Below, piece by piece: positions 6,969-45,440 of a DNA stretch of 50,290 nucleotides. The notes under the pieces are model-generated. The model was not told the origin of the DNA and made no database searches. It saw only the letters and a program-made list of their open reading frames with translations. Within the stretch, counting starts at the first letter, position 1. Each line of letters begins with the position of its first letter. The DNA comes from Oscillospiraceae bacterium (GTDB lineage: Bacteria > Bacillota > Clostridia > Oscillospirales > Ruminococcaceae): NCBI GenBank assembly GCA_009782265.1, contig WRJM01000003.1, positions 1-50,290 on the forward strand, written 5' to 3'. The translations under genes were made by a program, and so were the position numbers.

Positions 6969-7379
6969 ATGAATAAAAGAATATTAATATTGGTTTTATT
7001 TATTTCTTTATTGATATTATCATCATGCATTTTAACAAAAAACATAAACAATGAAATACTGCCACCGCCTAATGAACTTTACGCTATGATTTTTGTCGAC
7101 AACGAATTATATCATTTTTTCGATTTTGATAAAGGCGGTAGAATGAATAAAGAAGAATTGGAATATTTAGGGAATATTATTAAAACGCAAGACAGACGCG
7201 TTCCTGATGAAAATTTTGTTTCAAATTGTTATTCTTCAGATACAGAGATATATCGAGTAGATGAAAATTGCATATATATTGAATATCAATTTGCTTTTCA
7301 AGATTCTATATGGTCGGGTTTCGGTTACAACACTTGGGAGCGTGCGGTGAATGAACCGCCGAAGAAAAAAACGAATTAA
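6969..7379 (+). CDS. Putative lipoprotein of unknown function
   Basis: Lipobox-like MNKRILILVLFISLLILSSC. ORF extends upstream to 6744; internal ATG chosen from the signal peptide. Confidence 0.5.
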   Translation: MNKRILILVLFISLLILSSCILTKNINNEILPPPNELYAMIFVDNELYHFFDFDKGGRMNKEELEYLGNIIKTQDRRVPDENFVSNCYSSDTEIYRVDENCIYIEYQFAFQDSIWSGFGYNTWERAVNEPPKKKTN

Positions 7380-7596
7380 ATTATCGCTTGCAAAAAGAAA
7401 TCAACCGCTTAAAAAGCGGTTGGCTTCTTTTATTTCAAACAATTACAAAAAAACAACCATGCATGAGATAGGACACGTTATGGGTTGGGATGGCCATCCT
7501 TCATCCGGTAATACAACTTGGGTCATGCAACAGGGTAAACTCGAAAACACAACATTAACTACCGGAGAAAAAAATCACTTATCACAAGTGTATTAA
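7351..7596 (+). pseudogene. Remnant of a metzincin-type zinc metalloprotease
   Basis: MHEIGHVMGWDGH matches HExxHxxGxxH. Only the active-site region remains, and the 5' part of the ORF runs through a terminator-like hairpin (AACCGCTTAAAAAGCGGTT). Confidence 0.55.
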
Positions 7597-7611: not shown

Positions 7612-8484
7612 ATGAAAACAAAATTAAAACCGTTCGTTTTTGGTGTTTTTACACTCGCGGCTTGTCTCGGTACGTTTCTGTTGGTATATTTTATAAATAA
7701 CGGGTTCGTGGGAAATGAATTAAACGATTCCGAATCTGACGGATTTTTTTATTCTACTTCTGACTACATAGAATTAAGTTTTGAAGAAATCGTTTCAGGC
7801 GCAACACATATCCTTGATGCTGAATATATAGGTGTTTATCCGGTAAAGCGGGAAATGCTGCTGATGTTTAAACCGAATCGTTTAATCAAAGGCGATGTTA
7901 AGGACAATATTATCCATATAGCTTTTGAACTCTCTATCGGACAAGGTGTAGAAGATATAAAGTATACAGAGGGAGAAAATTATTTATTATTCATTGACAG
8001 AAACCGCTCTGTATACAGAGAACACGATATATATACAGAGCGCGGAGCAGATTGCATTTCGTCAAAATCGGAAGATTGGGAAAAAGTCCATGAGCAAACA
8101 TTTGATTTAATGACAAAATTTAAAAATACAGCCCCTGAAGTATACGGAGCCGAGTTTACATTTTCAACTTCAATAACCGATATTTTAAAGGTTTCCCCGA
8201 ATATATTTGAGGTTGAAATCACAGAAGTTGAGGCTAAAAGCATGATTGTACCGGTGACTTCTTATATATGCACTGTTACAGAGGTTATACAGGGGACATC
8301 TTTCGTTCCAAAAAGCATTTATTTATCTTTATTTAACGATACAGTAAAGGTCGGCGAAACCTATATTGTTTTGTTATCTGATTCTTCCGCAAACCCCGTA
8401 TATGCACTATCTTCAAGAAATAGCGTATACACGAGAGAAAAAGCGTTAAAAATTCCTGAGTTAAAAGCTTTATTTAATGATTAA
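7612..8484 (+). CDS. Membrane-anchored or secreted protein of unknown function
   Basis: N-terminal hydrophobic segment, good SD (AAAGGAGG). Confidence 0.5.
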   Translation: MKTKLKPFVFGVFTLAACLGTFLLVYFINNGFVGNELNDSESDGFFYSTSDYIELSFEEIVSGATHILDAEYIGVYPVKREMLLMFKPNRLIKGDVKDNIIHIAFELSIGQGVEDIKYTEGENYLLFIDRNRSVYREHDIYTERGADCISSKSEDWEKVHEQTFDLMTKFKNTAPEVYGAEFTFSTSITDILKVSPNIFEVEITEVEAKSMIVPVTSYICTVTEVIQGTSFVPKSIYLSLFNDTVKVGETYIVLLSDSSANPVYALSSRNSVYTREKALKIPELKALFND

Positions 8485-8490
8485 ATAGCA

Positions 8491-8524
8491 AAAAAAGCCA
8501 ACCGTTCAACCGGTTGGCTTTTTT
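8491..8524. terminator. Bidirectional terminator
   Basis: AAAAAAGCCAACCG-TTCAA-CCGGTTGGCTTTTTT. Confidence 0.75.
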
Positions 8525-8536
8525 GTTTATATACCC

Positions 8537-40057: not shown

Positions 40058-40690
40058 ATGAACAAAAAACAAAAAACGGCGGAAATAAACCGCACGCTTA
40101 CAACGCTTTATCCCGAACCCGTCTGCGAATTAAACTATAATCAAAACAAGCCGCATGAACTTCTAATTGCGGCGCGGCTTTCGGCGCAGTGTACGGACAA
40201 GCGCGTGAATCAAGTCACCCCCGCGCTTTTTGCGCGGTTTCCGACGCTTACGGACTTCGCATACGCCGATGTTTCCGAGGTAGAGGAATTCGTGCGCTCC
40301 TGCGGGCTTTATAAAACCAAAGCACATGACATTGTTGAAACCTGTAAAATGCTTGTAAATACATATAATTGCACAATTCCCGACAGCATGGACGAATTAA
40401 TAAAACTGCCCGGTATCGGCAGAAAAACTGCTAATCTGCTTCTCGGCACGCTTTACGGTAAACCGGCAATCGTCACCGACACGCACGTAATCAGGCTTTC
40501 CAACCGTTTTGGTTTAGTAAACACCAAAAACCCCGAAAAGGTCGAATCAGCGTTAAAAAAGCTGATTGTGCCGGAAGAATCGCTGAACTTCTGTCACAGG
40601 CTTGTTTTATTCGGGCGGGAATTCTGCAAAGCACAGAGCCCGAAGTGCGCGGAGTGCGGGGTGAGAGAAATGTGTACTTATATTAAATAA
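40058..40690 (+). CDS. nth: Endonuclease III
   Basis: LIAARLSAQCTDKRVNQVTPALF, LPGIGRKTANLLLG, VTDTHVIRLSNR, C-terminal 4Fe-4S cysteines. Confidence 0.95.
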   Translation: MNKKQKTAEINRTLTTLYPEPVCELNYNQNKPHELLIAARLSAQCTDKRVNQVTPALFARFPTLTDFAYADVSEVEEFVRSCGLYKTKAHDIVETCKMLVNTYNCTIPDSMDELIKLPGIGRKTANLLLGTLYGKPAIVTDTHVIRLSNRFGLVNTKNPEKVESALKKLIVPEESLNFCHRLVLFGREFCKAQSPKCAECGVREMCTYIK

Positions 40691-40778
40691 AGAAATAAAC
40701 CGCCCCGGCTCAAAGGCGGCGGTTATTTCTAAATAACTCAACCCACGGTCAACCGTCTACCGGTTGCCCTTTTTCTAT
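40686..40778 (-). ncRNA. Orphan antisense-type RNA, homologous to the antitoxin RNA at 42945-43024
   Basis: Minus-strand TTGACA-N17-TATAAT (40783-40811), aligning body (GGGCAACCGGTAGACGGTTGA) and AACCGCC...GGCGGTT terminator-like hairpin. Confidence 0.55.
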
Positions 40779-40850
40779 TTTCATTATAAATCAAAATCAC
40801 GCTTTTGTCAATACATTAACTAAAAATCACAAAATTTTTTCAAAAACTGC

Positions 40851-42666: not shown

Positions 42667-42698
42667 GTATTTCCATAACAGTTGTTTTAATCGCAACG

Positions 42699-42732
42699 GC
42701 AAAACCCCCGTCTTTCGGCGGGGGTTTTGTTT
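42699..42732 (+). terminator. Flagellin terminator
   Basis: AAAACCCCCG...CGGGGGTTTTGTTTT. Confidence 0.8.
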
Positions 42733-42750
42733 TATAATTTAATTATTAAT

Positions 42751-42779
42751 TTGACAGAAATTGGTATTTATGTTATAAT
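42751..42779 (+). promoter_or_regulatory. Consensus promoter of the putative type I toxin
   Basis: TTGACA-N17-TATAAT. Confidence 0.8.
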
Positions 42780-42862
42780 TATTTTGCGAAGAAATTCGCA
42801 TACATATAGGGCATATCAAACGGTAAGCGGTCAATTTCCCCTCGGAAACGAGGTGAGGTCGT

Positions 42863-42949
42863 ATGACTTGGCTTGAGTTCTTAACTTTAGCACTTGTTAT
42901 CTGTAACATAATCAGCATAATGCAGAACGACTATATAAAAAGGAAATAG
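42863..42949 (+). CDS. 28-aa hydrophobic peptide, putative type I toxin
   Basis: SD AGGTGAGG then MTWLEFLTLALVICNIISIMQNDYIKRK. Not in the supplied ORF track. Confidence 0.72.
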   Translation: MTWLEFLTLALVICNIISIMQNDYIKRK

Positions 42950-43024
42950 CCGCCCTACGTCCAAAGTAAGCGGCTAATTTCTTAATCTTACGTGAGGGCG
43001 ACCGCTATCGGTATGCCCTATTCT
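42945..43024 (-). ncRNA. Putative antisense antitoxin RNA overlapping the toxin 3' end
   Basis: Minus-strand TTGACA-AAAGGGCTTATATGTGT-TATAAT (43031-43059); AGCCGC...GCGGCT hairpin followed by ATTTCCTTTTT at its 3' end. Confidence 0.7.
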
Positions 43025-43087
43025 ATGGAAATTATAACACATATAAGCCCTTTTGTCAATAACCAAACAAGCTTTTCATTAAAAATA

Positions 43088-43116
43088 TTGACATTTATTT
43101 TAAATTTTGGTATAAT
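43088..43116 (+). promoter_or_regulatory. Consensus promoter of tRNA-Arg
   Basis: TTGACA-N17-TATAAT. Confidence 0.75.
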
Positions 43117-43154
43117 ATTATGGCGCATGGTTGATTAAAATATCTTGCAATAAT

Positions 43155-43226
43155 GCCCCCATAGTTAAATGGATATAACGGGGTCCTCCTAAGACTCAGT
43201 TGCAGGTTCGATTCCTGCTGGGGGTG
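43155..43226 (+). tRNA. tRNA-Arg (anticodon CCT)
   Basis: Cloverleaf: acceptor GCCCCCA/TGGGGGT, anticodon stem GGGTC/GACTC with loop CTCCTAA, T arm GCAGG-TTCGATT-CCTGC. Confidence 0.93.
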
Positions 43227-43321
43227 GTCGCGAGCCGCGACGGGCAGTATCACTGCTCCTCTACTAAGTGCAATAAATCGTCAAGTTCGGATTTTAAAGC
43301 AGGCAGTGCGGAAGTAGCGTA

Positions 43322-44146: not shown

Positions 44147-44795
44147 TTATAATTGTCTTGTTACCGACAACCTTAATCCTGTCCTCACAGAACAACGCAA
44201 CCGCTTCAGGTAAAATTACCTGTTCGGCTTCTTCCATGACACGTTTTTGCAGGGTTTCGGGGGTGTCGTCATCTTTGACTTCTACAGCTTTTTGCAAAAT
44301 AATCGCCCCGCCGTCACAGACTTCATTCACAAAATGAACCGTTGCACCGGTGAGCTTCACGCCGCTTTTAATTACAGCTTCATGCACTTTTAAACCGTAA
44401 AATCCCGTTCCGCTGAACGCGGGAATCAGCGCGGGGTGAACATTGAGCATTTTATTCGGGAACGCTTTTACAACCAACTCGTCAAGAATAATCATAAAAC
44501 CGGCATAAACCACAAGGTCGGTTTGATTTTCTTGTAAAATCCGCAGAATTTCCGCGCTGAAAGCCTTTCTGTCCGGCTTATAAGCCCTCCATTCAACAAC
44601 CGCGGTTTTGATGTTGTTTTCTTTGGCGCGGGTTAAAGCATAGGCGTCCGCTTTAGAAGAAATAACAAGATTAATGCGCCCGTTTTGGATTTTACCGGCT
44701 TTTTGGGTCGCATCGGACGCTCCGGCGTTAATTAAAGCCTGCAAATTCGTGCCGCCGCCGGAAACTAAAACTGCTATGTTTTTCATAAACTTCAC
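44142..44795 (-). CDS. purN: Phosphoribosylglycinamide formyltransferase
   Basis: IAVLVSGGGTNLQALI, VYAGFMIIL, NVHPALIPAFSGTGFYGLKVHEAVIKSGVKLTGATVHFV. Confidence 0.95.
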   Translation of the reverse strand: MKFMKNIAVLVSGGGTNLQALINAGASDATQKAGKIQNGRINLVISSKADAYALTRAKENNIKTAVVEWRAYKPDRKAFSAEILRILQENQTDLVVYAGFMIILDELVVKAFPNKMLNVHPALIPAFSGTGFYGLKVHEAVIKSGVKLTGATVHFVNEVCDGGAIILQKAVEVKDDDTPETLQKRVMEEAEQVILPEAVALFCEDRIKVVGNKTIIT

Positions 44796-45124
44796 ATTAA
44801 CATTTCTTTAATTTGTTTTTGTAATAACGGAATATCAGTAGTTATTGTTTCCCAAATATCTTCCATACGTAAGGTCTGATAACCGTGCGCTGTTACATCA
44901 CGTAATCCGGAAATTGAACGCCACGGAATCGCAGAATTATTTGATTTAATATTATCAGATAGAAGTTTAACTAATTCGCCGATATTAATTAATGTCATGC
45001 AAACAGCTCTTTTAGTTTTTTCGTCATTTATAAATTTTTCATTGCTGAAATTTGTTATCATATCGGTTATAATAAATGTTTCCGATAAAATTTTATTTAA
45101 TACAGCTTCATCTCTTTTATCCAT
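44792..45124 (-). CDS. HepT-like (DUF86) protein
   Basis: IPWRSISGLRDVTAHGYQTLRMEDIWETITTDIPLL (Rx4-6H-like). Confidence 0.83.
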   Translation of the reverse strand: MDKRDEAVLNKILSETFIITDMITNFSNEKFINDEKTKRAVCMTLINIGELVKLLSDNIKSNNSAIPWRSISGLRDVTAHGYQTLRMEDIWETITTDIPLLQKQIKEMLM

Positions 45125-45401
45125 AAACTCTTACAACCTTTCCTATTTCCAAAAACGTGTCTCCCGGTAAAGGAGCATGAATTATATCAACAGAAATTTT
45201 TAATTGCGCTTCTAAATTATTCTTTATTTCCGATAACATAAATAAAGATACAGCCGGATTTTGAAACTCTATCAGTAAATCCAAATCACTTGCTTCGGTT
45301 TGCCGTCCGTCGGCATATGAACCGAAATAAGAAACGTTTTTTATCGGAAAAGTTTCCGCCGTGTTTATTATCGCTTTGCTTATTTCATCATGTGTTATCA
45401 T
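45117..45401 (-). CDS. MntA-like minimal nucleotidyltransferase
   Basis: VSYFGSYADGRQTEASDLDLLIEF (GSx10DxD). ORF opens at 45413 within the repeated leader. Confidence 0.85.
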   Translation of the reverse strand: MITHDEISKAIINTAETFPIKNVSYFGSYADGRQTEASDLDLLIEFQNPAVSLFMLSEIKNNLEAQLKISVDIIHAPLPGDTFLEIGKVVRVYG

Positions 45402-45440
45402 ATTTATAACCATTCCTGTTTGAAAGATTATTTTTAAACT
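45399..45440 (-). repeat. Hairpin leader, copy C (degenerate, upstream of MntA-like gene)
   Basis: Minus strand GTTTAAAAATAATCTTTCAAACAGGAATGGTTATAAATATG. Confidence 0.6.

Follow-up and report, generated by a model that had tools for sequence, protein, structure and literature searches.

The window analyzed here is a 50,290-nt stretch of Oscillospiraceae DNA from a fragmented assembly that is 88.5% complete. Two converging promoters, each a perfect TTGACA-N17-TATAAT, were found by direct reading and by scan at 42751-42779 on the plus strand (toxin promoter) and at 43031-43059 on the minus strand (antisense promoter), just as the first-pass annotation of this DNA had described them. The plus-strand transcript, whose start we infer from the sequence to lie approximately 7 nt past the -10 box, would open with a stem-loop predicted from sequence and folding (GCGAAGAAATTCGC, 42786-42799). 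This is followed by two segments (ATAGGGCATAT at 42806-42816 and CGGTAAGCGGTC at 42821-42832) that by direct reading are both complementary to 43000-43021 and that together form the 5' arm (42806-42832) of an end-to-end clamp of the mRNA. The toxin open reading frame has 28 codons (42863-42949, plus strand) and encodes the peptide MTWLEFLTLALVICNIISIMQNDYIKRK; its assignment is based on homologues, dN/dS and hydropathy. The Shine-Dalgarno (SD) sequence GAGGTGAGG at 42850-42858 is present and strong as originally noted, but reading and folding both place it within a local hairpin (CCTCG-GAAA-CGAGG, 42840-42853). A 3' hairpin, GGGCGACCGCTATCGGTATGCCC (42996-43021, plus strand), recognized from covariation helices 1-2 and from the clamp pairing, is likely to serve as both the terminator of the toxin mRNA and the 3' arm of the clamp. 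Its hairpin proper, GGGCGACCG-CTAT-CGGTATGCCC, spans 42996-43018 and is the likely terminator element, with a poor T-tract in the window copy (TATTCTAT).

The opposite strand of this 3' hairpin constitutes the 5' hairpin of the antisense RNA, the putative antitoxin; the two transcripts would open with similar 5' ends in the form of an inverted repeat. The antisense RNA is delimited by covariance model and covariation to 42933-43024 on the minus strand, approximately 90 nt with a 5' end near 43024. Its terminator (42937-42975, minus strand; helix 3 of the covariation analysis) is formed by the arms AGCCGC (42948-42953) and GCGGCT (42970-42975) followed on that strand by TATTTCCTTTTT. The terminator had been placed after the toxin stop codon; the hairpin and its T-tract are found, but the hairpin overlaps the stop codon, with the AG of TAG inside the stem. 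The locus is more than a chance arrangement: homologous copies retain all of its features, with both promoters, the antisense terminator and the clamp recurring in dozens of loci, and the helices covary. With at most one mismatch, the toxin promoter is kept by 41 of 62 homologous elements, a count that takes in toxin-less ones, and the antisense promoter by 56 of 63. Of the neighbors, the flagellin gene has its own strong terminator (42698-42731), and a third perfect promoter at 43088-43116 (plus strand) is that of tRNA-Arg(CCU) at 43154-43227. The window also contains, at 44792-45413 on the minus strand, a gene pair for a HepT-like RNase and a nucleotidyltransferase, a HepT/MntA-type toxin-antitoxin (TA) system.

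The 28-aa peptide consists of a single hydrophobic helix with a basic tail and reaches a hydropathy maximum of 2.51 over 15 residues, which agrees with the hydrophobic helix and charged C-terminus first read from this frame. Close homologues are found in the same genus at 1-4 per genome, with 50-79% identity. For codons 1-22 of 16 homologues, the part of the frame that lies outside the antisense overlap, we obtained a pS of 0.65 versus a pN of 0.22 (median dN/dS approximately 0.17), indicating purifying selection on the reading frame and upholding the expectation that it would be conserved in related genomes. No Pfam or NCBIfam model matched the peptide. Pfam Hol_Tox (PF16935) gave no match to it even at E 10; the positive control BsrG passed this model (E 1.8e-8), and the peptide of one relative scored 14.1 bits against a cut-off of 23.3. 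Weak protein matches (E 0.2-0.7) in three genomes (G028, G034, G046) have the full DNA architecture, so the family is badly underestimated by protein similarity alone. In tblastn searches neither this peptide nor a second one of the family had a match in plasmids, and the phage matches of the 28-aa peptide were at chance level; carriage by plasmids or phages was rejected on these grounds.

We used covariance models to examine the antisense RNA independently of the peptide: R1, made from the antisense RNA of 15 window-type loci, and the broader R2. The window antisense RNA was matched at 42930-43029 by both models (R1, E 9e-20; R2, E 5e-17). R1 recovered its own training set and also found loci with Hol_Tox peptides (L055 at E 4.5e-11, L064 at 7e-9 and L053 at 3e-8); further R1 matches to PF16935-type loci include L058, L060 and L063, the weakest at E 2.9e-4. 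Note that the Hol_Tox loci were chosen solely by the match of their peptides to Pfam Hol_Tox, and that R1 was trained on window-type loci only. By this measure, the window antisense RNA and that of PF16935-peptide loci are homologues. A search of the whole window with Rfam release 15 at the gathering score returned a tRNA as the sole match and nothing over the TA locus; on the homologous loci examined Rfam found no TA RNA family, while the bsrG control was found, and the open-licence papers searched held no description of the antisense-RNA family. The earlier statement that the locus belongs to no described family thus stands with respect to Pfam, NCBIfam and Rfam, but needs qualification because the same antisense RNA is found at loci that pass Hol_Tox.

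Covariation supports the predicted structure of the antisense RNA. Across 62 aligned antisense RNAs, 91.3% of the pair cells were paired, and 75 double changes were counted versus 20.7 in shuffled alignments (0 of 500 shuffles); structures slid along the same alignment were only 20-54% paired. A further 54 antisense RNAs from scans of the order and phylum gave 91.5% paired cells and 81 double changes versus 20.1 shuffled (0 of 500). Fitting both alignments to the model favors the structure, but the compensatory counts are still far above both controls. Within the terminator helix (helix 3), 7-8 of the 9 pairs have compensatory changes. The E-values of the models are rough, ordinary terminators reaching E 4e-4. 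In the window itself, R2 matched 7360-7439 (E 4e-4) and 8424-8530 (E 2e-3), and both were rejected as antisense copies, being ordinary strong terminators without a promoter or toxin; the strong terminator hairpins at these marginal matches lie at 7390-7440 and 8488-8530. Weak model matches therefore need other features too.

The complementarity of the 5' UTR to the 3' region, reported in the first-pass annotation, is a conserved property of the family. In the window the 42806-42832 arm pairs with 43000-43021 at -38.5 kcal/mol. When each 5' UTR of 48 complete elements was paired with its own 3' end and with that of every other element, the duplex energy was -42.3 kcal/mol for self versus -28.0 kcal/mol for non-self pairs, a difference reached in none of 20,000 permutations. 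When whole mRNAs were folded, 46 of the 48 elements formed 15 or more clamp pairs. Over the same 48 elements, mean SD accessibility was 0.13-0.18 whether the mRNA was full-length, trimmed, nascent or antisense-bound. An SD on/off switch operated by antisense binding or by 3' trimming was rejected, as accessibility was unchanged in folding. The hok-like foldback inhibition originally suggested is consequently borne out for the foldback between the 5' and 3' ends, but an SD block by that foldback lacks thermodynamic support, because the local hairpin hides the SD with or without the clamp. Similarly, translational control by the antisense RNA is not predicted, since SD accessibility is unchanged on antisense binding. 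With the SD inaccessible in every folded state, we think that the clamp may guard the RNA ends and slow decay rather than mask the SD. By analogy with txpA/RatA and bsrG/SR4, the antisense RNA would act through duplex formation and RNase III. The window antisense RNA is predicted to be cognate: with its own mRNA the pairing energy is -187 kcal/mol, whereas the best value with the mRNA of any other copy is -76 kcal/mol.

Copies of the element are numerous. Within the genus, 44 of 71 genomes gave R2 matches at E <= 1e-4, and the window's own genome has 14 copies. With strict filters and the same threshold, at which the weakest matches may include chance ones, 76 of the 247 genomes scanned in the order carry copies (as many as 16 each), as do 47 of its 126 sampled genera; in the phylum scan, 22 of 300 genomes did. 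Those strong matches that were inspected (below about 1e-8) had the promoters, clamp and ORF as well. As a negative control, ten genomes from outside Clostridia were chosen because each has a chance terminator-like match, and they gave none at 1e-4; a Megamonas genome gave one weak match, one Ruminococcaceae genome none, and a Ruminococcus genome six copies, one with a peptide (MTILELLTLMLLIVAIIDLSNNKKK) near the window type. Named carriers of the exact antisense-terminator pattern are mostly Oscillospiraceae assemblies, and several of the carrier isolate codes look, from their names, like termite-gut bins. Of 115 copies, 83 or more are complete TA units, and the neighbors of the copies differ. 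Neither window copy is present beside nth or the IMP cyclohydrolase gene in relatives (29 examined for each), so the window insertions are lineage-specific. At L155 (G014:C1:289000-294400) and L235, five TA units follow one another in tandem at intervals of about 335-360 bp; the peptides are nearly identical in the L155 array and several differ in that of L235.

A single antisense-RNA/clamp chassis carries very different hydrophobic peptides of 22-37 aa, as exemplified by MELIMGFLVLYALLLIIREIKK beside MTWLEFLTLALVICNIISIMQNDYIKRK. The window's genome has nine further complete units with different peptides, most of them 22 aa of the type MELIxxFLxLYxxxxIIxxIKK and one of 34 aa. Toxin candidates of this 22-aa type on the same chassis (L077, L079, L080, L084 and L002:1898) are so short that no protein family model covers them. 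On the sequence evidence, the family is defined by its RNA, is large, and lies outside Rfam.

Three toxin-less antisense genes with perfect promoters are present in the window's genome. One of these lies in the window at 40680-40811 on the minus strand (R1, E 2.7e-9; R2, E 9.4e-13), with its RNA at 40680-40781 and a perfect promoter at 40811-40783; it lies immediately behind the nth stop codon, upstream of the flagellin gene, and is absent after nth in 29 relatives. The antisense RNA of another, L086 (G000:C1:4841; the third is L087), has 26 nt of perfect complementarity to the mRNA of the complete unit L079 (G000:C2:22387), at -128 kcal/mol, and is possibly a trans antitoxin for that unit. 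In another genome, L227 (G045:C2:40000-49000, detailed in L004) is a TA island holding hicAB, a RelB-type antitoxin gene, a complete type I unit, a Gp49/HigB-like and XRE pair, and three toxin-less antisense units. The toxin-less units of L227 are 84-98% identical to its complete unit, and one starts exactly at the stop codon of the XRE antitoxin. A general clustering of toxin-less copies at type II TA operons was rejected, as only L227 has this arrangement and most others have different neighbors.

The window locus is very probably a type I toxin-antitoxin locus: it has a small hydrophobic ORF under selection and, at the sequence level, an antisense gene with its own promoter, terminator and covarying RNA opposite the toxin mRNA. 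The type I architecture with antisense RNA and foldback put forward in the first-pass annotation is to this extent strongly supported by conservation, covariation and recurrence. We propose that the plus-strand promoter would produce an mRNA of approximately 240 nt, its ends paired in a clamp of about 22 bp and its SD shut in the local hairpin; with the ends clamped and the SD locked, the mRNA would be stable but poorly translated. The minus-strand promoter would produce the antisense RNA of about 90 nt, starting opposite the mRNA 3' end and stopping within the last toxin codons. Because it is fully complementary over approximately 90 nt, the antisense RNA would open the clamp at its 3' arm, and the resulting duplex would be cleaved by RNase III, as happens with RatA on txpA. 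Should the antitoxin supply fall, surviving mRNA would be translated and the 28-aa basic-tailed helix would insert into the membrane, stopping growth. The transcripts, the RNase III route and the membrane toxicity are in this scheme what we infer. The weak T-tract of the window toxin terminator, the lack of a Pfam or NCBIfam match for the peptide, the failure of R2 to detect SR4 and the unchanged SD accessibility on antisense binding count against the scheme. As a whole, we nonetheless regard as highly likely the explanation that this is a compact, TxpA/BsrG (Hol_Tox)-like type I TA module, with a silenced mRNA, an antisense RNA and a membrane-acting toxin.

The wide differences among peptides on a single chassis would also suit an antisense-controlled membrane peptide that is not toxic and that regulates a membrane process as ComI does. 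ComI inhibits competence, and its NCBIfam model weakly matches the peptide of one relative (E 0.0081), but at 15.9 bits versus a cut-off of 55; layered silencing by SD hairpin, clamp and antisense RNA, together with multicopy turnover, is typical of toxins, and we consider a non-toxic peptide unlikely. The scattered and lineage-specific copies, neither window copy lying next to nth or the IMP cyclohydrolase gene in the relatives, could be taken for a MITE-like mobile element, its complementary ends serving as terminal inverted repeats and its promoters and ORF being incidental. We think this very improbable: the predicted transcripts enclose the complementary stretches, the conserved promoters fall outside these, and the ORF is under selection. 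Furthermore, G028 has two identical toxin copies with a common toxin promoter, yet the spacers of their antisense promoters differ; the copied unit is thus not bounded by the repeat ends. Just as hard to credit is a role of the antisense unit chiefly as a bidirectional terminator or a stray promoter for its flagellin and tRNA neighbors. The hairpins are strong, and toxin-less copies do lie at the 3' ends of nth (in the window) and of a HigBA-like operon, but flagellin and the tRNA have their own terminator and promoter, and most copies are complete TA units.

The TA module favored here would add to gut Clostridia, where type I systems are poorly charted, a large family whose defining part is the RNA and not the peptide; the RNA model makes findable peptides of 22-30 aa that are invisible to protein searches. 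A genome with a dozen copies, different peptides and private antisense pairing provides a natural set for studying antitoxin specificity, how toxins turn over and what antitoxin genes that lack a toxin do. More tentatively, the RNA chassis (clamped mRNA plus the antisense RNA of about 90 nt) might be an independently evolving, mobile control cassette that Clostridia combine with mini-toxins unrelated in sequence, that is also shed as stand-alone antitoxin RNA genes and that at times becomes attached to type II TA operons (L227). Were this so, other genes could come under the trans control of type I antisense RNAs.

Among known systems, par of pAD1 (Fst/Ldr) resembles the window locus in having a small hydrophobic toxin and a convergent antisense RNA. 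The par locus has a bidirectional terminator common to both RNAs and direct repeats. The window locus has instead two separate terminator hairpins and 5' ends that form an inverted repeat, and its peptide matches no Fst/Ldr model in Pfam or NCBIfam; membership in Fst/par, and with it the likeness drawn in the first-pass annotation, was rejected. Long-distance pairing of the toxin mRNA ends, predicted for the window locus, is a feature of hok/Sok and AapA/IsoA as well. Membership in hok/Sok was rejected because the antisense RNA does not pair with the toxin leader; it covers the 3' part of the mRNA and the last codons. The ends of the AapA3 toxin mRNA of Helicobacter pair over a long distance, and this pairing itself masks the SD, 3' trimming activating the mRNA (PMC6733600); in contrast, the window SD is masked locally, and the peptides are unrelated. 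The CD2517.1-RCd8 type of C. difficile is a convergent type I TA with several copies per genome and often prophage-linked toxins of 50-53 aa (34-35 in some) with no reported sequence similarity to others (PMC6563280). The window family, compared with this type by description only, is similarly convergent, multicopy and clostridial.

The comparison with txpA/ratA proved apt. BsrG/SR4, TxpA/RatA and BsrE/SR5 are the Bacillus subtilis systems of this kind, BsrG belonging to Pfam Hol_Tox PF16935 and Rfam RF01412. In common with the window locus they have a convergent antisense RNA that overlaps the 3' part of the toxin mRNA and a small hydrophobic peptide with a basic tail. The bsrG ribosome-binding site lies in a short GC-rich hairpin (PMC6562991), as the window SD lies in a local hairpin, and RatA acts on txpA by an RNase III route (PMC3531473). 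At the bsrG locus on phage SPBc2 we found the SD hairpin along with a 5'-3' helix of -43.2 kcal/mol versus -16.2 kcal/mol for shuffled 5' arms; an SD in a local hairpin and a long 5'-3' mRNA helix are thus present in both the window family and bsrG. The window peptide differs in being below Pfam detection. The window antisense RNA of about 90 nt lies wholly inside the toxin mRNA and starts at the terminator hairpin of that mRNA. In txpA/RatA and bsrG/SR4, by contrast, the two RNAs overlap at their 3' ends by approximately 100-140 nt and the antisense RNA starts beyond the toxin terminator, a separate one in bsrG. R2 did not detect SR4 in the 601 bases of the bsrG locus (9.2 bits, E 0.18), and RF01412 found bsrG only and none of the window-family loci. 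The putative holin-like toxins (Hol_Tox) of Clostridia of the same order have the same DNA/RNA chassis, found by an RNA model naive to them, but their peptides are longer and of the YSDLIQIGILI type, compared with the WLEFLTL type of the window. The nearest kin are the TxpA/BsrG-Hol_Tox systems, not Fst. Because the window peptide fails the Hol_Tox test, R2 and RF01412 do not cross-detect, and the antisense start differs from that of bsrG, we file the window locus as a compact and new variant, one that would work like TxpA/BsrG on a chassis common to clostridial Hol_Tox loci.
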